A stretch of 64,000 bases of DNA from a virus: IMG/VR virus record IMGVR_UViG_3300032607_000303, positions 16,846 to 80,845 of that record; one strand, given 5' to 3'. Below the pieces are notes generated by a model that had not been told where the DNA came from, did not search any database, and saw only the letters and a program-made list of their open reading frames with translations. The translations under genes and the position numbers were made by a program. Positions 2,910-56,719 of the stretch are shown here, piece by piece. Position 1 is the stretch's first letter; every line of letters begins with the position of its first letter.

Positions 2910-3742
2910 TACAGCACCATAGGGAATAATACTGGGTGGGAGTCGATGATGGCCCCTACACCTATGATGGGCCGCTTAAGTTGCAACTTGTTGTAAGCCA
3001 TCGCCAAAGACTTCCCATCAACTAAGCACCCTACTTGCATACTCCAGAATAGGTCGTTTGGGTTACTCCAATACCCGATATTGAACTCGGAGTGATGATG
3101 CTCTTGCACGCAATTCATAGCGTAGCTTTGTGACAACTTAACACCATTTGCACTTTTTCCATGTGTGAAGTAACAACTCTGCCCATTCGGAAGAACAATC
3201 GTCATATCGTCATGCCAGCGCCAACCTTTGTCCACACCAAGAATATCTCCGTAGTCTTTTATATATGCCCGAGGGATGCCCGCTGTCATGGATTTCCGTA
3301 GGTGCAAACTTCCATGATTACTTTCAAGAATGTCCATTTGTGGAAATAGCTTGAACAACTTGGCTATAACTTTCTTAGCCGCATGTAATTCATCTCCGGC
3401 AGAAGGCATGTCTGGGTTGTGCTCATGATAGGATTGCGCTGCGGCATCAACCTCGTCACCAACAGAGATAATTCTTGTAAACTTGTGCTTGTTATGGAGT
3501 TCTTCCAAAAAATTAATTGCATTAGGGTGGCACCAAGGAGCGTGTAGGTCACTTATCACCAAGATTCTGGAGTTATCATGTACAACAGTCTCTACAGGTT
3601 CCTTAAACGCCTCATACTTACGCAAAAAGTCCGACACAGAACTCTTTGGAACCTTCAATACTTTGCTAATACCTCTCCAAGAAATTGCACCTGTGTTATT
3701 CAGACTAATGGCAGACTCTTCCCAGCTTTTAACAATACTCAT
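2909..3742 (-). CDS. Calcineurin-like metallophosphoesterase with N-terminal helix-turn-helix
   Basis: This is probably a two-metal phosphoesterase. Residues about 15-45 (ISWRGISKVLKVPKSSVSDF) look like a helix-turn-helix, suggesting DNA binding. The catalytic domain then shows the family motifs in order: ISDLHAP (DxH), VGDEVDA (GDxxD), LESNHG (the GNH[E/D] box with S for G), FTHGK and a late HHH-rich stretch. Phages often carry such enzymes beside replication genes; the substrate (nucleic acid end, nucleotide or protein) is unknown. A helix-turn-helix fused to a phosphoesterase points towards a nucleic-acid substrate, which is inference. Confidence 0.85.
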   Translation of the reverse strand: MSIVKSWEESAISLNNTGAISWRGISKVLKVPKSSVSDFLRKYEAFKEPVETVVHDNSRILVISDLHAPWCHPNAINFLEELHNKHKFTRIISVGDEVDAAAQSYHEHNPDMPSAGDELHAAKKVIAKLFKLFPQMDILESNHGSLHLRKSMTAGIPRAYIKDYGDILGVDKGWRWHDDMTIVLPNGQSCYFTHGKSANGVKLSQSYAMNCVQEHHHSEFNIGYWSNPNDLFWSMQVGCLVDGKSLAMAYNKLQLKRPIIGVGAIIDSHPVLFPMVL

Positions 3743-8600: not shown

Positions 8601-8677
8601 TGGTGTCCCGAGTCAGACTTGAACTGACGACCAATCCCTTATGAGGGGAGTGCTCTGACCAACTGAGCTATCGGGAC
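8601..8677 (-). tRNA. tRNA with CAU anticodon (Met or Ile2)
   Basis: A 77-base cloverleaf: acceptor GTCCCGA/TCGGGAC, D-arm GCTCAGTTGGTCAGAGC, anticodon loop CTCATAA, T-arm GTCAG-TTCAAGT-CTGAC, and an encoded 3' ACCA. Anticodon CAU fits elongator Met or, if C34 is converted to lysidine, Ile reading AUA. The variable-loop wording (TTGGTCG) and TTCAAGTC T-loop resemble host tRNA-Ile2, so Ile2 is a real alternative. Confidence 0.9.
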
Positions 8678-8696: not shown

Positions 8697-8726
8697 ATTA
8701 TAATTCACCTAATAATAACCTGTCAA
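8697..8726 (-). promoter_or_regulatory. Sigma-70-like promoter for tRNA and SSB
   Basis: On the minus strand TTGACA (8721-8726) and TATAAT (8697-8702) are both perfect, with an 18-base spacer. Transcription would begin just before the tRNA. This is one of the best promoter matches in the window. Confidence 0.85.
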
Positions 8727-47715: not shown

Positions 47716-47744
47716 TTGACATCAAGCAACATTTGTGATACAAT
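47716..47744 (+). promoter_or_regulatory. Sigma-70-like promoter before the GIY-YIG gene
   Basis: TTGACA (47716-47721), 17 bases, TACAAT (47739-47744), followed by ACGCGCTAATTA. The same downstream wording occurs after the promoter at 54945. Confidence 0.78.
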
Positions 47745-47766
47745 ACGCGCTAATTAAAGGAGAGAT

Positions 47767-48570
47767 ATGTCTGTAGTGTATTGGATTCATTTGCCAGAGC
47801 ATGTAGATATGTTCACTCAAGGGTATGTAGGTGTTTGTTGTAAGAGTGCACAACACAGATTTCAACAACATTGCAACGCAGCTAGAGCTAATTCACAGAA
47901 CATTGTTCACAGAGCTATTAGAAAATATGGAGATTCTATATTAATTGATACTTTGATAGAGTCTTCTAATGAGTATTGCTATAAAGTAGAAAATAAACTT
48001 CGACCTAACATAAATGTCGGATGGAATATGGCAATTGGTGGAAAGGTTCCCCATGGGTATCCTCACACAGATGAAAATAAGGAAGCACAGAGACAAAGAA
48101 GGATTGGGAAACAGGCTTCTGAAGATACTAGAAAACTACTTTCAGAACAGAGCACCGGGGAGAAAAACAACTTCTTCGGTAAAGAGCACTCCCAAGAAAC
48201 TAAAGAAAAAATCTCAAATGCACGAAAGAGTTTTCCCCAAGAGACTAAGGATCGTTTAGCTTTGGCAAATGGTATGAGGGGTAAAAAGCACACTCCAGAA
48301 GCTCGTGATAAAGTAATAAAAACACTAAATAGAGATGGCTGTAAAGGTTGGCTTCCTTGGAAACACCCAAGAGCTAACAAGGAAATGTGGAAGATGGCTG
48401 ACCAAGTGTACGATTTCCTATCTAGTTTTCCATGCAGTACACACTATAAAATTGCAAAAGCTTTACCAATAACAAATAAAACCGCACTAACAATCAAAGA
48501 TAAAATTGAGGCTGGCTGGAATCCTATAGAAGATTCTGAGTGGCTTGATTTCCAAATGACTAAGGGATAA
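47767..48570 (+). CDS. GIY-YIG-type homing endonuclease with NUMOD3 repeats
   Basis: The N-terminus VVYWIHLPEH...QGYVGVCCKSAQHRFQQH is a GIY-YIG variant with spaced VYWI and GYVGV strands and the following RFxxH. Two NUMOD3-like DNA-binding repeats follow: NNFFGKEHSQETKEKIS and RGKKHTPEARDKVIK. The C-terminus is basic and helical. It sits between terL and the portal gene with its own promoter and AAAGGAGAG ribosome site. Confidence 0.82.
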   Translation: MSVVYWIHLPEHVDMFTQGYVGVCCKSAQHRFQQHCNAARANSQNIVHRAIRKYGDSILIDTLIESSNEYCYKVENKLRPNINVGWNMAIGGKVPHGYPHTDENKEAQRQRRIGKQASEDTRKLLSEQSTGEKNNFFGKEHSQETKEKISNARKSFPQETKDRLALANGMRGKKHTPEARDKVIKTLNRDGCKGWLPWKHPRANKEMWKMADQVYDFLSSFPCSTHYKIAKALPITNKTALTIKDKIEAGWNPIEDSEWLDFQMTKG

Positions 48571-50094: not shown

Positions 50095-50949
50095 ATGAAG
50101 GCACATAAACTATTCAGGTTAACTCAGCAACTTTACGGTGTACCTCACCTATTGTCAAGACAAAGTTTTAGTAGCATCACAAGCTACCTAAACTCTCGTA
50201 ATGCTTCATCGATGATGCTCCCGACAAATGAGAGTTACGAAGCAGAAGAGCCAGACGACCTTGACGATATTAACGGTGTTGGCATCATTGAGATTAATGG
50301 CCCTCTCACTAATAAAGAAACTGGTTGGGAATCTATGTGTGGTGGATGTTCTTACGAGAGCATCTTGGAACAAGCAGAAGAACTAATTGAGAACGGCGCA
50401 AAATGTCTAGTGTTGTCTCTTGACTCTGGCGGAGGAGAAGCCTACGGAGTATTCTTGATGGCTAAACAACTACGCAAGATGTGTGATGATGCAGGCATTC
50501 ACCTTATTGGCTACGTAGATGGAACTTGTGCAAGTGCTTGCTACGCTATTGCTTGTGTATGTGACGAAGTAGTGGCAAACCCTTATGCTGAAGTCGGATC
50601 AATTGGCGTATTAATTTGTCTAACTGACCAGTCAAAGCATCTTGAGCAAGAGGGATATAAGCCAATCTTCATCTCAGCAGGATCAGAAAAAATTCCATAC
50701 GCAGAAGACGGAAGCTTCCGACCAGAATTCCTAGAAGACTTGCAAGCTAAAGTTGACAGTCTCTACGAAGCATTCTGCGAACATGTTTCAGAGTACACAG
50801 GGTTGTCTGTTGAGGATATAAAGGCTACTGAAGCTAAAGTGTATATGGCAGAAGATGCTATGTCAAGAGGTTTGATTAACAAAATTATGTCCAACGTAGA
50901 CTTTGTAGACTATGTGGCGTCAATTCAACGAGGATTTGCAGATGCGTAA
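50095..50949 (+). CDS. Prohead protease, S49 (SppA) family
   Basis: It would process head proteins during capsid maturation. GIIEINGPLTNKE opens the fold; LSLDSGGGEAYGVF is the oxyanion turn; VDGTCASACYAIACVCDEVV holds the nucleophile serine, and VGSIGVLICLTDQS follows. ATG at 50095 follows AAGGAACAC; the longer frame would overlap the portal gene. The next gene starts inside its end, as is usual for protease and scaffold pairs. Confidence 0.87.
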   Translation: MKAHKLFRLTQQLYGVPHLLSRQSFSSITSYLNSRNASSMMLPTNESYEAEEPDDLDDINGVGIIEINGPLTNKETGWESMCGGCSYESILEQAEELIENGAKCLVLSLDSGGGEAYGVFLMAKQLRKMCDDAGIHLIGYVDGTCASACYAIACVCDEVVANPYAEVGSIGVLICLTDQSKHLEQEGYKPIFISAGSEKIPYAEDGSFRPEFLEDLQAKVDSLYEAFCEHVSEYTGLSVEDIKATEAKVYMAEDAMSRGLINKIMSNVDFVDYVASIQRGFADA

Positions 50950-51481
50950 ACTATTTCAGAAGGTTTTTAACACAGCTTCGGCTGAACAAGTGAAGGAAGA
51001 AGTAACGATGACAACTAAAGAGGGGCAACCAGATATGGCTGCTGAAGATACTAAGACAGCAGAACTAGCAGCCCTTTTGGAATCGGTTACTACGACCCTT
51101 TCGGCTACTCAATCTAAGCTAACAGAAATGTCAGCACTGTATGAAGTTGCACAAGCGGCCCTAGCAGCTTCTGACGCAGCTAAAGAACAACTCGTAGTAG
51201 ATGCCAAGCAAGTTCGCCTAGCAGCCCGTAAAGAAGCCATTGTAGCTTCTATTGGCTCTGCTAAAGCTGACGCTTTGCTTGCAGCCACTGACGCTCTTGA
51301 CGATACAGCATTCAATGCTGTCGTAGGAGCTATGGCAAATTCTTTTGAAACAGAAGCTTCTTCGGCGCTGTTTTCGGAAGTTGGAGTAGCAGCTAAAACT
51401 GACACTTCAGCAGTAGTAACGGAACCAGAAGAGAGCAAAGAATCTAAAATGCTCAAAGCTAAATACAACAAATCTAAATAA
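50942..51481 (+). CDS. Scaffold-like protein, 179 aa
   Basis: Alanine-rich and helical with a long coiled coil (LESVTTTLSATQSKLTEMSA), overlapping the protease end by 8 bases. Position between protease and decoration protein, low complexity and charged C-terminus (SKMLKAKYNKSK) fit a capsid scaffold removed by the protease. ATG at 50942 follows GAGGATTTGCAG. Confidence 0.65.
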   Translation: MRKLFQKVFNTASAEQVKEEVTMTTKEGQPDMAAEDTKTAELAALLESVTTTLSATQSKLTEMSALYEVAQAALAASDAAKEQLVVDAKQVRLAARKEAIVASIGSAKADALLAATDALDDTAFNAVVGAMANSFETEASSALFSEVGVAAKTDTSAVVTEPEESKESKMLKAKYNKSK

Positions 51482-51498
51482 TTAAAAGGAAATAAATT

Positions 51499-51915
51499 AT
51501 GGCAATTATCGCAAATGATAGCACACGATTCTCAGGCGTCATCGCTCGTGAATTCGACCCAGCCTCGGCATATTGCCGTGACACAGTGGTTTACAACGGT
51601 ACAGCTATCACTCTGCCAGTCGGCGCTGTGTTGGGTAAAGTTACAGCAACGGGTAAGTATAAGTTGGTTGAAGCTACAGCCAATGATGGTTCGCAAGTAG
51701 CTGCTGCTGTCGTCATCGCAGATATTCTTGGCCTGTCGCGCCCACAAGTTATGGTTCTGAATACAGACACTCAAATGCTGGCAATGACACGCGGCCCAGT
51801 TATCCTTAAAAAAGCTGGCCTAGTGTTTGGCGCAAGTGTTACTGCCGGTGCTTTGACAAACGCTGCTTATGCACAACTGACCGCTGCTGGCATGATCCCA
51901 GAAACGTCGATCTAA
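51499..51915 (+). CDS. Head decoration protein, lambda gpD-like
   Basis: Trimers would bind the outside of the mature capsid. The 138-residue sequence has a flexible N-terminus (FSGVIAREFDPASAYCRDTV) and the beta-rich core AVLGKVTATGKYKLVEATAN, ending in a GPVILKKAGLVFG strand. This fits the HDPD family. AAAAGGAAATAA precedes the ATG. Confidence 0.82.
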   Translation: MAIIANDSTRFSGVIAREFDPASAYCRDTVVYNGTAITLPVGAVLGKVTATGKYKLVEATANDGSQVAAAVVIADILGLSRPQVMVLNTDTQMLAMTRGPVILKKAGLVFGASVTAGALTNAAYAQLTAAGMIPETSI

Positions 51916-51947
51916 TAATACTACCAAGAAAAGAATAGGAATAAATT

Positions 51948-52976
51948 ATGGCAATTACTCGTAGCTTTGGCGCAAATGGTCAGTTTGAACTTACCGACTG
52001 GACAGGCGAACTGAACATCATCCCTAACTCATGGGGTACTATTGGTGAGCTGGGCATTTTTCAAGAAGAGTCAGTGGCTGAACATACAGTTACCTTTGAG
52101 AAAATTACTAAAGATGGTTCGTTGATTGTTGACCGTGTTCGCGGTGATCGTTCAAACCAAAATAAAGACTATGCTCGTGAAGTGCATTCGTTTGTTGTGC
52201 CACACTTCCCACTGTCGGACTATATCAGCCCTTCAGACATTCAAGGCAAACGTGCTTATGGCAATCCTAACGAAGCAGATTCGTTGGCTGCTGTTCGTGC
52301 CCGTAAGATGGAGCGTGCTGCTGCTGCTCACAACTGGACTCTGGAAGCCGCCCGTGCTCAAGCCTTGACGCTAGGTACTGTTTACGCTCCTAGTAACACT
52401 GTGAGCCAAGATTGGTACACAGAGTTTGGTAAGTCGCGTACTACCGTCAACTTTGCTTTCTCTGTTGCTACAACAGATGTTATTGGCCAAATTGAAGCAG
52501 CAATCGCCGCAATTCAAGACAATGGTGGTAATATCTCCATGTCAGGTATTGTTGTAATGTGTTCGCCTACTTGGTTTGCTGCTCTGATTGCTCACCCGAC
52601 TACCAAGACAGCTTATCAGTTCTATACAAGTACGCAAGACCCATTGCGCTCGCGTCTGGCAGCTAATGGTTCGGCTACAGCTATGCACCGTGAGTTCTTC
52701 TACGGCGGCTTGCGTTTTATCGAAATGCGCGATGCCTATAATTCAGTACAGCTAATCCCTAATAATACTGCAACAGCAGTTCCAACGGGCAGCGAATACT
52801 TTAAGACGTATTTCTCGCCAGCTAACCGTTTCTTCACGGTTAATACTTTGGGTGAGCGTCAGTACATGTTCGAGACACCATCACTAGATGGTACGGAAAT
52901 CCGCATTGACACAGAATCGAATTTTGTCAACGCACTTCTGCGCCCTGAACTTGTGATTACTCTCACAAAAAGCTGA
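51948..52976 (+). CDS. Major capsid protein, lambda gpE-like
   Basis: HK97-fold shell protein. The E-family layout is clear: FELTDWTGELNIIPNSWGTI, VTFEKITKDGSLIVDRVRGD, FVVPHFPLSDYISPSDIQGK and GTEIRIDTESNFVNALLRPE near the end. It has 342 residues, as is usual. Codon choice is more uniform and GC-richer than in neighbours, as expected for the most abundant protein. Confidence 0.9.
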   Translation: MAITRSFGANGQFELTDWTGELNIIPNSWGTIGELGIFQEESVAEHTVTFEKITKDGSLIVDRVRGDRSNQNKDYAREVHSFVVPHFPLSDYISPSDIQGKRAYGNPNEADSLAAVRARKMERAAAAHNWTLEAARAQALTLGTVYAPSNTVSQDWYTEFGKSRTTVNFAFSVATTDVIGQIEAAIAAIQDNGGNISMSGIVVMCSPTWFAALIAHPTTKTAYQFYTSTQDPLRSRLAANGSATAMHREFFYGGLRFIEMRDAYNSVQLIPNNTATAVPTGSEYFKTYFSPANRFFTVNTLGERQYMFETPSLDGTEIRIDTESNFVNALLRPELVITLTKS

Positions 52977-53020
52977 CAGTAAATAAGTAATAATTTGTGG
53001 GATAACTACCCATTAGTCTC

Positions 53021-53062
53021 TTGACACAAGCAATCTCTTAAAAGTATAATAAGAGATTGCTT
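53021..53062 (+). promoter_or_regulatory. Promoter embedded in a 12-pair inverted repeat
   Basis: TTGACA (53021-53026), 18 bases, TATAAT (53045-53050). AAGCAATCTCTT (53028-53039) pairs perfectly with AAGAGATTGCTT (53051-53062), and the -10 box lies in the 11-base loop. It could terminate capsid transcripts weakly, or be an operator over the promoter of the next endonuclease gene. Confidence 0.72.
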
Positions 53063-53077
53063 CAATAAAGGGATTGT

Positions 53078-53962
53078 ATGAAAGTTTGTTATGCGTGTAA
53101 AAATATCTTACCCGAGGAAGATTTTCTAAAGGGTAGTAAAACAGCAATATGCCTTACATGTAGCAGAAAAAAGTTAAAGAAAATAAAAGACGAAAAGATA
53201 AGCGGATCATATGTAAACCCTAAAAGTGTGCAAGCAAGATCAGAAAAGTTTAAATTGGACTGCACAAACATTCACTCTAGTGTATATACCTATGAAAAAG
53301 TCGATTACAAAGGTCACAACACTAAAGTTGAAATATTTTGCACTAAGCATCAAGGATATTTCTGGCAATCTCCTTGCAGCCACAAGAGTGGTAATGGGTG
53401 CTTGGTCTGCTACAACTCTAACCTAAAAGTTAATGGACTTAAAAGAAGAGTTACTACAGAGGAACTAAAGATTAGGGCTACAGTTGTACACAAGGATAAA
53501 TTCACATTTGACAATGTTGAATGCAACGGGATGCTTAAGCATGTTCAAGTAACTTGTAAAATACACGGAGACTTTCCTACAGCACCGCATAACTTACTAG
53601 CTGGGTGGGGATGCCCTAAGTGTAAAGTTAGTGGTTACTCTACTGAAAAACCCGGGTCTTTATATCTATTAAATAATGGCAGCATTACAAAAATAGGTAT
53701 TACTAATAGGGAAGTTCATACAAGGGTTTCAGAAATAAACAAGACAGTTTCTAAAAGTTTTGGTATTCTCTATGAATATAGAAACAAAGATGGCGCTGTA
53801 GCTAAATCAATTGAAAGTGTGTTAAAGGTATTTCTGTCTAGCACATATAAGTCACCCTCAGATAAATTTGATGGTTATACAGAGTGTTTTTATGATGTTG
53901 ATACCCAAGCCATACTAAAAATAATAAAAAATTTAGTAACAATTACAGAGGAAATTCAGTGA
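53078..53962 (+). CDS. Zinc-finger homing endonuclease with C-terminal GIY-YIG-like domain, 294 aa
   Basis: A CYACKNIL...AICLTCSRK zinc ribbon begins the protein. Two tandem DUF723-like modules follow: FCTKHQGYFWQSPCSHKSGN with CLVCYN, and VTCKIHGDFPTAPHNLLAG with CPKCK. The C-terminal domain GSLYLLNNGSITKIGITNRE, then RVSEINKT and AKSIESVL resembles the T5orf172/MUG113 branch of GIY-YIG nucleases. It separates the capsid gene from the head-tail connectors and has its own promoter. Confidence 0.8.
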   Translation: MKVCYACKNILPEEDFLKGSKTAICLTCSRKKLKKIKDEKISGSYVNPKSVQARSEKFKLDCTNIHSSVYTYEKVDYKGHNTKVEIFCTKHQGYFWQSPCSHKSGNGCLVCYNSNLKVNGLKRRVTTEELKIRATVVHKDKFTFDNVECNGMLKHVQVTCKIHGDFPTAPHNLLAGWGCPKCKVSGYSTEKPGSLYLLNNGSITKIGITNREVHTRVSEINKTVSKSFGILYEYRNKDGAVAKSIESVLKVFLSSTYKSPSDKFDGYTECFYDVDTQAILKIIKNLVTITEEIQ

Positions 53963-54405
53963 CTATAGACCCATCAACAGACATTGGTAAGCTCCGACTA
54001 CGTTGCGCAGATTTTGGAGATATTCCCTATCTGCCCGATAGTGTTTACACTCAGACGCTGGCAGATAATAATAATAGCCTACCAACATCTGCAAAAATTT
54101 GTGCGACATACATACTAGGTCAGTTAGCTTTTAAAACTCACCGTAAAATTGGCCTTCAGCTAGAGGTGTGGGGAGCCGAGGCATTTACTAACTACAGAGA
54201 TTTTCTAATTCTCACTGTTACAAACCCGAACTTTTTTGATATCTCACCGATTCCATACAATGTAAATGGAACTACTCTACACCCTCTGATTAAGTTTCAA
54301 GAAGATTGGAATAGCAATTACGCTCAGATAACTCAGTCACAACAATTGGCAATGGATGCAATTGGATCACCGTCAAGCTCTGCTCTTTGGTATTGGCCTC
54401 AATAA
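53959..54405 (+). CDS. Head-tail connector (adaptor) protein, 148 aa
   Basis: GTG start overlapping the previous gene. It is helical with GKLRLRCADFGDIPYLPDSV at the N-terminus, typical of the HK97 gp6-like adaptor that docks under the portal. Position directly after the capsid block supports this. Its stop overlaps the next ATG. Confidence 0.68.
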   Translation: MTIDPSTDIGKLRLRCADFGDIPYLPDSVYTQTLADNNNSLPTSAKICATYILGQLAFKTHRKIGLQLEVWGAEAFTNYRDFLILTVTNPNFFDISPIPYNVNGTTLHPLIKFQEDWNSNYAQITQSQQLAMDAIGSPSSSALWYWPQ

Positions 54406-54794
54406 TGAGCGCACAAGACGACTTCACAAGAATGATTAATGACTTCTTTGACGATGATCCTCAGACAGCAACCTATCATCAATACTCACAAGGTTCTTAC
54501 AACCCTGCTACTAGCGAATACTCTACAACACAAGTTGATACTCCAGTAAGAGTTATTACTTTAGATTTAACGCGTAACTCTAACGGACTTTCTAGTAAGT
54601 ACGGCACAGATATCCTAAAAGGAGATAAAGATGTCTACATGAAAACTTTCTATCTGGGGGAAATAGTAGTAGACGTTAATACTACTTCTGACAAGATAAC
54701 AATAAGTGGTGTTCTTTACAAGGTTTGTAATTCAAAAGTGTTAGACCCAACAGGGGCTTCTCCTATGCTATTTAATTTTTTAGTTAGGCGATAA
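54405..54794 (+). CDS. Head closure/head-tail joining protein, 129 aa
   Basis: ATG at 54405 forms TAATG with the previous stop. Beta-rich (TPVRVITLDLTRN, GEIVVDVNTTSDKITISGVL) and ending FNFLVRR, like small neck proteins that plug the head. Assigned mostly by order and size. Confidence 0.6.
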   Translation: MSAQDDFTRMINDFFDDDPQTATYHQYSQGSYNPATSEYSTTQVDTPVRVITLDLTRNSNGLSSKYGTDILKGDKDVYMKTFYLGEIVVDVNTTSDKITISGVLYKVCNSKVLDPTGASPMLFNFLVRR

Positions 54795-54805
54795 CATATT
54801 ACGCT

Positions 54806-54934
54806 ATGAGTAAATCTGCTAATGTAGAAGAACGTATAGAAATTAATATAGAAATAAATACAAATATTATTTTAACCTACACTTCTGGTGTTACAGGACA
54901 AATTTTGTTAGACTGGAAAGCTGTATCAGTGTAA
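54806..54934 (+). CDS. Hypothetical protein, 42 aa
   Basis: Begins MSKSANVEERIEINIEINTN; beta-like. The ribosome site is weak. It could be a remnant of a larger gene or a real small virion component. Confidence 0.4.
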   Translation: MSKSANVEERIEINIEINTNIILTYTSGVTGQILLDWKAVSV

Positions 54935-54944
54935 TTACAAGTTG

Positions 54945-54973
54945 TTGACAAGAACATTCAGTTGTGCTATAAT
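54945..54973 (+). promoter_or_regulatory. Sigma-70-like promoter for tail genes
   Basis: TTGACA (54945-54950), 17 bases, perfect TATAAT (54968-54973), then ACGCGCTAATTA, the same wording that follows the 47716 promoter. Confidence 0.82.
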
Positions 54974-54997
54974 ACGCGCTAATTAGGAAATACATAC

Positions 54998-55450
54998 ATG
55001 TCATTTTTGTCAGATATTGAAGCCTTCAGAGAAAAAGCTTTACAGCAAGCATCTAAAAATTCTAGCGATGTGTTTGAATATGTTTCTAAGCAAGCTGTAC
55101 TGTTGTCTCCAACACCTCCGGGTAAAAGTGGAATATACGCTACAGGGCATTTAAAAGACCAATGGTATGCATCTATAAATTCTCCAGATAAGTCCACAGG
55201 TTCAAGCGCATCAATAGACGGGGCTTCTAGTATAGGGCGTATTGATAGCCTACTGTCCACACAGCCTTTCTACGGAAAGGATGCTACATTATACATTACA
55301 AACAGCGTCCATTACGCATACCTTGTTGATAAACTAGGATGGAAAGCCGGACTGGATATAGCATCAGGCTGGATATGGACAGGCAATGCTAAGCCATATG
55401 CTATCACAGAAACTGCCATAGCTAAGACACTATTAAGATATAAAGTATAA
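54998..55450 (+). CDS. HK97 gp10-like tail completion protein, 150 aa
   Basis: Helical N-terminus (DIEAFREKALQQASKNSSDV), then SPTPPGKSGIYATGHLKDQW, ITNSVHYAYLVDKLGWKAG and a C-terminal helix. SP(T/V)xTGxLxxSW and NxxxYAxxxExG spacing is that of gp10-type neck proteins that join head and tail. Confidence 0.75.
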   Translation: MSFLSDIEAFREKALQQASKNSSDVFEYVSKQAVLLSPTPPGKSGIYATGHLKDQWYASINSPDKSTGSSASIDGASSIGRIDSLLSTQPFYGKDATLYITNSVHYAYLVDKLGWKAGLDIASGWIWTGNAKPYAITETAIAKTLLRYKV

Positions 55451-55457
55451 GGAAGCT

Positions 55458-55862
55458 ATGGCAACAAACAGACAAGAATTAGAAAGCCGAATAGCTGCCT
55501 TTGCAGCCTCGCAATCTCCACCACTCACAGTAGCTTACGAAAATGTACCCTTCACTAAGCCCACAAATTCTTCTTACTTAGAGTGCTTCTTAGTGTCTGC
55601 TGGGACGGTAGCACTTACAGTAGATGCTTCCCGCAATCGTGAAAGGGGTACTTTACAAGTTAATGTATGCTCACCAAGCGGTCAAGGTAGCAATAAAGTA
55701 GAGACTATTGGCGCTGCACTTGTTCAAGCTTTTCCAGTTGTTCCCAAGCAAGGTAATGTCTCGATTGAACAACCCGGAAACACAGAAAGACTTATAGTAG
55801 AAATAAGCGGCTGGATAATCTTGCCCGTAACTTTTCCATACAGGGTAGAAACGGAAGCCTAA
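55458..55862 (+). CDS. Tail terminator protein (DUF4128-like), 134 aa
   Basis: RQELESRIAAFAASQSPPLT helix, then VAYENVPFTKPTNSSYLECF and a beta-rich C-terminal half ending VTFPYRVETEA. This is the usual form of the ring that stops tail-tube growth. It follows the gp10-like gene, as expected. Confidence 0.78.
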   Translation: MATNRQELESRIAAFAASQSPPLTVAYENVPFTKPTNSSYLECFLVSAGTVALTVDASRNRERGTLQVNVCSPSGQGSNKVETIGAALVQAFPVVPKQGNVSIEQPGNTERLIVEISGWIILPVTFPYRVETEA

Positions 55863-55907
55863 TTGTGTTGCAGAACACATCCATTGTAGCACAAATTAAG
55901 GAACATA

Positions 55908-56252
55908 ATGAGTACAATTATTAATACAACAAAAGGTTTGGGAGTTTTTGCAGCCCCTAAAGTTTCTCTGACTGGTGCAGACACACTGAATTTTGCAGGT
56001 ACGCAAGATCAAGAATTGATTCTTTATAACATCACAGCATCGCCTGTGGTAGTTACTATTGACGGCGCTGGCGGCACTACCGTTGTTATCCCCGGTACAG
56101 GTGGTGTAACAGCATCAGTAGCTTCTGGTTTGGCTGTGACTGTTCCAGCAAATGATTTCCAAATTGTCCGGTTGCAGAATGTTTCTGCGTACTTGCAAGG
56201 TGCAGTAGCAGTAACAGGTGGTGTCGGCGTTGTAGCTGCCATCATTCAATAA
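55908..56252 (+). CDS. Hypothetical beta-rich virion-region protein, 114 aa
   Basis: Gly, Ala, Val and Thr-rich with repeated strand-turn units (TIDGAGGTTVVIPGTGGV). It looks like a small beta barrel that may decorate head or tail. Codon use resembles the abundant capsid and tail tube genes. The family is not recognised. Confidence 0.65.
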   Translation: MSTIINTTKGLGVFAAPKVSLTGADTLNFAGTQDQELILYNITASPVVVTIDGAGGTTVVIPGTGGVTASVASGLAVTVPANDFQIVRLQNVSAYLQGAVAVTGGVGVVAAIIQ

Positions 56253-56275
56253 TTCCAAAATAGAAAGAAATACAA

Positions 56276-56719
56276 ATGACAACTCTCGCATTTTCGAGCG
56301 CAGGCTCAAAAGTTTCTCTGTCGGCTGGTGTTCCAGCTACAGTTGACGCTGCTGGCTTCGGCGCACTGACATACACAGAAATTAAAGAACTGACAGACAT
56401 CGGTATGATTGGCCCAGAATCGGCTGTCATTACCCATAACCCTGTTGGCGACAATACGACGTACAAACTCAAAGGTTCTCGTAACAACGGTTCAGTTGAC
56501 CTGAAAGGTGCTCGTGCTCCTACAGATGCTGGTCAATCTTTGCTGATCGTTGCTGAAGCTTCTAATTCAACTTTTGCAATGAAGATTACTTTGCAAAATG
56601 GCGTAATTCTTTACGCACAAGTGTTGGTTATGTCGTACAAAACTTCAATCGGTACAGTGTCACAAATCACCTCGTTTGAATCAAAGTGCGAAGTGTCTGG
56701 CCCAGTTGTAACAGCGTAA
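56276..56719 (+). CDS. Major tail tube protein
   Basis: 147 residues with the beta-barrel layout of siphovirus tail tubes: VSLSAGVPATVDAAGFGALT, YTEIKELTDIG, THNPVGDNTTYKLKGSRNNG and a final ITSFESKCEVSGPVV. The position just before the frameshifted chaperone is diagnostic. Confidence 0.83.
   Translation: MTTLAFSSAGSKVSLSAGVPATVDAAGFGALTYTEIKELTDIGMIGPESAVITHNPVGDNTTYKLKGSRNNGSVDLKGARAPTDAGQSLLIVAEASNSTFAMKITLQNGVILYAQVLVMSYKTSIGTVSQITSFESKCEVSGPVVTA

Follow-up and report, generated by a model that had tools for sequence, protein, structure and literature searches.

Hairpin, promoter and genes at the locus

The window, i.e., the whole stretch of DNA analysed (64 kb, drawn from a virus record of 80,845 bases), carries a major capsid protein gene, an endonuclease gene and a gene of phrog_1732, hereafter gene X, in this order on one strand (Table 1); gene X and the endonuclease stop overlap by 4 nt. 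The endonuclease protein matched PF10544 (T5orf172) with 23.1 bits (cut-off 20) and phrog_681 (endonuclease) with 4e-42; residues Y196, G207-I208, R216 and E246 were invariant across six aligned sequences, that of the window included. We take the T5orf172 domain to be GIY-YIG-like and these residues to be of GIY-YIG type. From the domain, the phrog_681 match and the invariant Y, GI, R and E, the gene product appears to be an endonuclease of a homing family. An AlphaFold model of the protein (mean pLDDT 72, built from six sequences) gave no PDB match at E ≤ 0.001; the PDB sequence search returned weak antibody and fibronectin matches only, and the NCBIfam search with four proteins of the window gave no match. 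Nucleotide relatives of 50912–56719 were not found in the phage collection, nor those of 52900–53962 in the plasmid collection.

Table 1: Features of the capsid–endonuclease junction and its flanks (positions of the window).
Feature	Position	Strand	Basis or remark
Major capsid protein gene (Phage_cap_E, PF03864)	51948–52976	+	Pfam 9e-57; phrog_29 major head protein
Hairpin A, GTGGG ATAACTA CCCAT, motif GGATAANNACC	52997–53013	+	one fold; alignment of 5 loci
Hairpin B, two-tier stem-loop	53014–53076	+	fold, covariation in 11 loci, covariance model
Hairpin B, outer stem, 9 bp, UAGUCUCUU with AAGGGAUUG	53014–53022 with 53068–53076	+	fold
−35 box TTGACA	53021–53026	+	spans the junction of outer 5' arm and internal loop
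Hairpin B, internal loops, 5 nt per side	53023–53027 and 53063–53067	+	fold
Hairpin B, inner stem, 13 bp	53028–53040 with 53050–53062; loop 53041–53049	+	fold
−10 box TATAAT	53045–53050	+	within the hairpin loop; spacer to −35 box 18
Predicted transcription start	53056–53058	+	derived from promoter geometry; falls in the inner right arm
Shine-Dalgarno AAGGGA of the endonuclease gene	53068–53073	+	inside the outer 3' arm
Endonuclease gene; cysteine-rich N-terminus and repeats, C-terminal T5orf172 domain	53078–53962	+	PF10544, phrog_681
Gene X (phrog_1732)	53959–54405	+	directly 3' of the capsid gene in insert-free relatives

A preliminary description had placed a promoter in this gap, with its −10 box in the loop of a perfect 12-pair inverted repeat, and both features were found as described: the repeat consists of AAGCAATCTCTT (53028–53039) and AAGAGATTGCTT (53051–53062) around AAAAGTATAAT (53040–53050), and the two boxes match the sigma-70 consensus at 12 of 12 positions. 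The exact repeat pattern occurred once in the window and in 0 of 100 shuffles, and an equally good inverted repeat in the 130 nt 3' of the capsid gene was obtained in 0 of 2000 dinucleotide shuffles, which rules out a chance repeat. The perfect pattern TTGACA-N16-18-TATAAT was present three times in the window (both strands; 0.06 expected); together with the association of TATAAT with endonuclease genes among the relatives (below), this leads us to reject a chance promoter. Transcripts started at the promoter had been expected to hold only part of the right arm, in agreement with the start predicted near 53057, inside that arm.

Three other promoters of the window were recorded: a perfect consensus promoter at 8697–8726 (minus strand), just 5' of a tRNA-Met gene (8601–8677, minus strand); a strong sigma-70 promoter (TTGACA-17-TACAAT) at 47716–47766, followed at 47767 by a second endonuclease gene, with a NUMOD3 motif; and a strong sigma-70 promoter (TTGACA-17-TATAAT) at 54945–54997, followed at 54998 by a neck-like gene. 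The latter two, at 47716 and 54945 in the structural region, have 13 nt, TACGCGCTAATTA, in common, starting at the last base of the −10 box; their leaders were no better folded than shuffles (z −0.10 and 0.71).

Predicted folds of the two RNAs

The 12-pair hairpin of the preliminary description is real as a repeat and incomplete as an RNA structure: an additional A-U pair gives a 13-bp stem with a 9-nt loop, and an outer stem is added below it (hairpin B). That reading did not extend to the outer stem with the Shine-Dalgarno sequence or to the upstream hairpin motif, and it lacked both the promoter–endonuclease link in relatives and the signs of a mobile cassette. The fold of 52977–53110 had −32.4 kcal/mol (z −3.8; 0 of 200 shuffles equal); a shorter piece gave z −5.1 (0 of 200 shuffles equal). 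In the minimum-energy folds the outer stem is predicted to extend to 12 bp, CAU 53011–53013 pairing with the AUG start codon 53078–53080. Hairpin A competes for these bases in the window, 53011–53013 either closing hairpin A or pairing with the start codon; in a piece ending 12 nt past the start, hairpin A was formed and the outer stem kept 9 pairs, and hairpin A was absent from the minimum-energy folds. The RNA of the promoter transcript folded weakly (−3.4). A U-tract is absent 3' of the inner stem in the window, CAATAAAG coming next. Rfam, at gathering scores, returned three tRNAs only, so that the leader matches no known RNA family.

Masking was expressed as the predicted unpaired probability of the Shine-Dalgarno sequence in read-through RNA and in the promoter transcript. 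For the window the mean value for AAGG was predicted as 0.02 (read-through) vs 0.51 (promoter transcript). The window thus combines, in the predicted folds, two properties of hairpin-regulated endonuclease genes, a paired Shine-Dalgarno sequence and a transcript of the gene's own promoter that cannot form the hairpin.

Hairpins, promoters and predicted masking among relatives

Relatives were obtained by capsid-protein searches of IMG/VR and genome contigs (from the three largest searches, the best 80 of 287, 430 and 162 relatives); two named phages and the window were added, giving 229 stretches in which the 3' end of the capsid gene is complete, with many contigs represented twice. These were collapsed at 97% identity to 111 downstream regions, 107 of them with at least 100 nt past the stop. 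An endonuclease-like gene was found 3' of the capsid gene in 20 loci (phrog_681, endonuclease VII phrog_1035, HNH phrog_99 and relatives; PHROGs), three of which (L149, L201 and L230) are on contigs that end before gene X; the 87 other loci had no insert or unrelated inserts, or were L004 and L159, where the contig ends before gene X. Loci with a capsid at least 65% identical to that of Limnohabitans phage DC31 were taken as the DC31-like clade. At ten loci (L019, L028, L031, L052, L067, L068, L076, L078, L085 and L086) the gap between the capsid gene and gene X holds other inserts, by eye not endonuclease-like, and no exact TATAAT promoter. Pseudomonas phages Boevelstad, vB_PseuGesM_254, UAVern and ventosus have one strong hairpin in the 75 nt 3' of the capsid gene and no annotated endonuclease directly 3' of it.

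The best inverted repeat 3' of the capsid gene scored at least 9 in 88 of 108 loci, vs 4–9 of 108 in each of eight shuffles; no repeat of this score was found inside the capsid gene (0 of 108). The 108 loci share ancestry and so are not independent cases. The repeat finder scored Watson–Crick pairs only and treated all mismatches alike; the mismatches within the repeats were G-U in 199 cases, A-C in 43 and other in 105, vs about equal numbers of G-U and A-C in shuffles, and G-U exceeded A-C in 76 loci, the reverse being the case in 4. Such an excess is not expected of a DNA palindrome or of an antisense RNA, and the repeats are therefore best regarded as a sense-strand RNA element.

In the alignment of window-type hairpins from 11 loci, 92.2% of the cells were paired and 13 of 22 pairs were changed on both sides; the covariation score was 0.517 vs 0.252 ± 0.023 for shuffles, none of 500 reaching 0.517, and it fell to 0.16 when the partner was slid by one column. 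The 11 loci had been selected and trimmed by their own folds, which biases these values towards structure. In the helix the structure is kept and the sequence turns over, that of the inner arms included. The preliminary proposal of a hairpin in read-through RNA is thus supported as to its form, by the strong repeats of the relatives, the G-U mismatches and the compensatory changes; that the hairpin caps the capsid message is plausible. The covariance model scored the window, one of the sequences from which it was built, with 75.6 bits. In 100 sources (630 kb) all of its 25 matches (E up to 1) were 3' of capsid genes, the 11 loci used for the model being among them and matches on either strand of the same places being counted; a dispersed element is ruled out by this confinement. 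In ten whole records one strong place each was found in seven, all other places having E above 0.04; L094 gave a weak match (E 0.02), L087 and L011 none. Hairpins of the window type were also found at L002, L003, L005, L029 and L030, where no endonuclease gene is present.

An exact promoter was called when TATAAT stood 16–18 nt from a −35 box with at least 3 of 6 matches within the first 110 nt past the capsid stop. It was present in 13 of 20 endonuclease loci vs 5 of 87 others. Outside the DC31-like clade the counts were 8 of 12 vs 0 of 57 (p 6e-8), the clade cut-off and the −35 threshold having been chosen after part of the data had been seen. For the same loci, a promoter score of at least 9 of 12 gave 9 of 12 vs 2 of 57, and any TATAAT 8 of 12 vs 1 of 57; among AT-matched loci any TATAAT gave 8 of 10 vs 1 of 16 (p 2e-4). 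Inside the clade exact TATAAT was found in 5 of 8 endonuclease loci vs 5 of 30 others (p 0.02). On the capsid tree (107 rows), 17 changes of the endonuclease label are required, well-supported branches forcing 13 of them; independent pairs gave on average 7.5 with the endonuclease and 1.1 against for the exact promoter (median p 0.039, range 0.039–0.289), and 7.3 vs 1.0 for the looser promoter score (median p 0.070). In 6 of the 8 endonuclease loci with exact TATAAT outside the clade the −10 box overlaps the apical loop (P 7e-6 for random placement), and in 7 of the 8 the predicted start is within a 3' arm. The exact −10 box is absent from the remaining four (L032, L042, L066 and L072); of these, L066 has a masked Shine-Dalgarno sequence (0.01) without a promoter, and the endonuclease reading frame of L072 is broken.

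Promoter-like sequence was also observed in a long capsid-downstream hairpin of five DC31-like loci without an endonuclease gene (L126, L139, L141, L143 and L148), the hairpin of L141 having up to 27 continuous pairs; the nested sequence may drive gene X there.

Predicted unpaired probabilities of the Shine-Dalgarno sequence in read-through RNA and promoter RNA, respectively, differed as in the window in L201 (0.04 and 0.60), L149 (0.03 and 0.71), L041 (0.24 and 0.65) and L090 (0.37 and 0.95). The sequence was predicted open in both RNAs in L087 (0.75 and 0.71) and L018 (0.92 and 0.92), nearly open in both in L155 and L163, paired in both in L094 (0.06 and 0.07) and equal in both in L145 (0.38 and 0.37); in L042, L095 and L137 the rule identified no Shine-Dalgarno sequence. 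Openness did not differ significantly between endonuclease loci and others (p 0.09), so that masking as a general trait of endonuclease loci is unsupported; according to the predicted folds it is a feature of a subset of them. L145, L151 and L230 have a common leader, CCCCGAAAAGAA...TTTCGGGAGAAAT, that would pair across the Shine-Dalgarno sequence.

The block between the capsid gene and gene X

L011, without an endonuclease gene, shares 90% capsid identity with L041 and 78% with L090. Its capsid–X spacer, containing two hairpins, recurs 3' of the endonuclease gene of L041 as an exact 55-nt block and ACACAGCCGCT, and less exactly 3' of that of L090 (blocks of 19, 18 and 12 nt). In L041 and L090, native hairpins thus precede gene X, and the capsid-downstream hairpins belong to an extra block that is absent from L011. 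Read most simply, these sequences point to one inserted block, composed of hairpin A, of hairpin B with the promoter and of the endonuclease gene, that lies 3' of the capsid stop and 5' of the native hairpins; alternatively, L011 may have undergone a precise loss in place of a gain in L041 and L090. An empty site was identified for L041 and L090, but none for the window. There, as at most of the remaining loci, the endonuclease gene runs directly into gene X, so that insertion as a block is putative for the window. Where the block is present, the hairpins at the end of the capsid message would be those of the block.

The motif of hairpin A with at least 3 further pairs was found at five places among the loci examined, all of the capsid-then-endonuclease order; the hairpin was formed in L032, L041, L072 and L090, with a fixed motif and a covarying stem, and is perhaps a protein-binding or recognition site. 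The five hairpins B without an endonuclease gene may be scars of loss or a source of the cassette leader. By eye, what remains of a decayed endonuclease gene, with its leader still in place, seems to lie at 3600–3830 of L132, a DC31-like phage.

Tentatively, and with considerable doubt on our part, the cassette may carry a look-alike of the capsid 3' hairpin pair (one simple, one two-tier) that keeps the 3' structure of the capsid message upon insertion and doubles as promoter and translational lock; the mobile gene would mimic an RNA element of the host gene, which would make its insertion harmless and then serve it as a switch. On this view the same kind of leader would have been acquired at this site by endonucleases of more than one family, namely phrog_681, the endonuclease VII types and possibly HNH.

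Proposed control of the endonuclease gene

We consider it probable that the repeat belongs to the leader of a mobile endonuclease cassette that is silent in the capsid read-through mRNA and is translated mainly from its own promoter. The leader would be the 5' control region of a freestanding cassette that occupies the gap from the major capsid gene to the head gene that follows. Read-through mRNA would fold into the two-tier stem-loop, closing the capsid part with a stable structure and burying the Shine-Dalgarno sequence of the endonuclease gene and, in the best fold, also its AUG; with the Shine-Dalgarno sequence buried, the abundant capsid mRNA is proposed to yield little endonuclease. The same DNA would act as a consensus sigma-70 promoter, its −10 box placed in the loop; an RNA started from it would have its 5' end in the right arm and none of the left arms, and, being unable to fold, would leave the Shine-Dalgarno sequence more open. 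It is from these unmasked transcripts that the endonuclease is proposed to be made in the main.

An even chance is given to a reading in which the hairpin belongs to the capsid mRNA, as a 3' stabiliser or as an RNase III-type processing site, separating expression of the capsid gene from that further downstream, with promoter and endonuclease gene as secondary passengers. Strong repeats occur at 88 of the 108 loci, mostly without an endonuclease gene; window-type hairpins stand without it at the five loci named above, and structure is kept while the sequence turns over, all of which favours this reading. RNase III sites of phage T7 consist of two helices around an internal loop, and the predicted architecture of hairpin B, of the same build, is compatible with a processing signal of this kind. 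However, the link of the −10 box in the loop with the endonuclease gene is left unexplained, and in L041 and L090 the native hairpins are those before gene X, not those of the block downstream of the capsid gene. The reading is probably true in part, and beside the two-way switch the capsid mRNA may also be cut by RNase III or stabilised at its 3' end.

An intrinsic terminator of the capsid operon, with a promoter arising inside it by chance, would agree with the stable hairpin at the end of the capsid gene and with the finding of at least five T in the 8 nt past a stem in 40 of 107 loci, a count without a shuffle control; yet only 1 or 2 T are present in the 8 nt past the inner stem in the 10 window-type loci with a value (none was obtained for L090), the terminator scan did not report the site, and a promoter by chance is unlikely. 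With the U-tract absent, an intrinsic terminator is unsupported and very improbable. A further reading takes up the dimer-binding operator of the preliminary description and adds that a dimeric repressor on the 12-bp repeat, which may be the endonuclease, would turn off the promoter. This reading draws on the perfect repeat that encloses the −10 box in the window, and on I-TevI, which, in the cited passages, binds an operator over its own late promoter and represses it (PMC2988022), a precedent on account of which an operator is conceivable here too. It found no support of its own in the data: the pairs retained in the relatives hold for RNA and disrupt the palindrome of the DNA, their mismatches being mostly G-U, as in a sense-strand RNA, rather than A-C, and as a conserved function the operator is unsupported. 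Moreover, the inner-arm sequence is not conserved, unlike that expected of a binding site; the half-site matched the window 15 times at up to 2 mismatches, both arms included, vs 10.4 expected, which is no enrichment, and only one other half-site with a single mismatch was found there. The I-TevI operator, too, is described in the cited passages as resembling the homing site, not as a palindrome (PMC2988022). A DNA operator at the repeat is not needed and appears improbable; by analogy with I-TevI, the endonuclease could possibly be an autorepressor as well.

The preferred reading, silence in capsid read-through mRNA and translation from the gene's own promoter, has close precedents. For I-TevI, encoded in the td intron of T4, the cited passages report that the ribosome-binding site is masked in transcripts initiated upstream and that those of an adjacent promoter are too short for the structure (PMC2988022, PMC3014915). 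The predicted layout at the present locus is alike in its structure over the ribosome-binding site in read-through RNA and in a promoter yielding structure-free transcripts. As far as those passages go, it differs in that I-TevI is intron-encoded and has a T4 late promoter, whereas the gene here is freestanding 3' of a capsid gene, has a sigma-70 promoter and belongs to a Phage_cap_E phage. The timing may also be opposite to that of I-TevI, with early or continuous synthesis by a host-type polymerase and silence in the late capsid mRNA. SegB of T4 and MobE of Aeromonas phage Aeh1 are, according to the same sources, stand-alone endonucleases with the ribosome-binding site in a hairpin and a similar layout of promoter and structure (PMC3014915, PMC2988022); the cited descriptions of both, unlike the present case, mention neither a −10 box of a sigma-70 promoter in the apical loop nor a pair of hairpins similar to the one of the host gene upstream, nor different endonuclease families behind one kind of leader at one site. 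For seg43(25) of Aeromonas phage 25 a very stable hairpin directly 5' of an unmasked ribosome-binding site is reported, as in L018 and L087; a promoter in the loop, as found here, is not part of that account as cited (PMC2988022). The leader of T4 gene e follows, in the cited passage, the same on/off logic of start sites, its late transcripts being without the 5' part of the structure (PMC3014915); that gene encodes lysozyme and uses T4 late promoters, and the gene here encodes an endonuclease. The T4 late box is given as TATAAATA for gene e (PMC3014915, passage cited); the promoter of the window, TTGACA-18-TATAAT instead of TATAAATA, is not of this class.

The control principle is therefore mostly explained by known cases (I-TevI, SegB, MobE and gene e), and the setting is new: the phage group, the sigma-70 promoter, the −10 box in the apical loop and the hairpin pair of capsid type. 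In a search, not a thorough one, of open-access titles and abstract openings, no description was found of a capsid-downstream hairpin or of a hairpin-embedded sigma-70 promoter of an endonuclease gene. If the preferred reading is true, the control of selfish endonucleases by a start inside the hairpin, as known from T4, would extend to other phages and to sigma-70 promoters; and the comparative set, with at least 20 endonuclease loci, at least 87 others and one clear empty site, would bear on how a mobile gene enters harmlessly 3' of a capsid gene.
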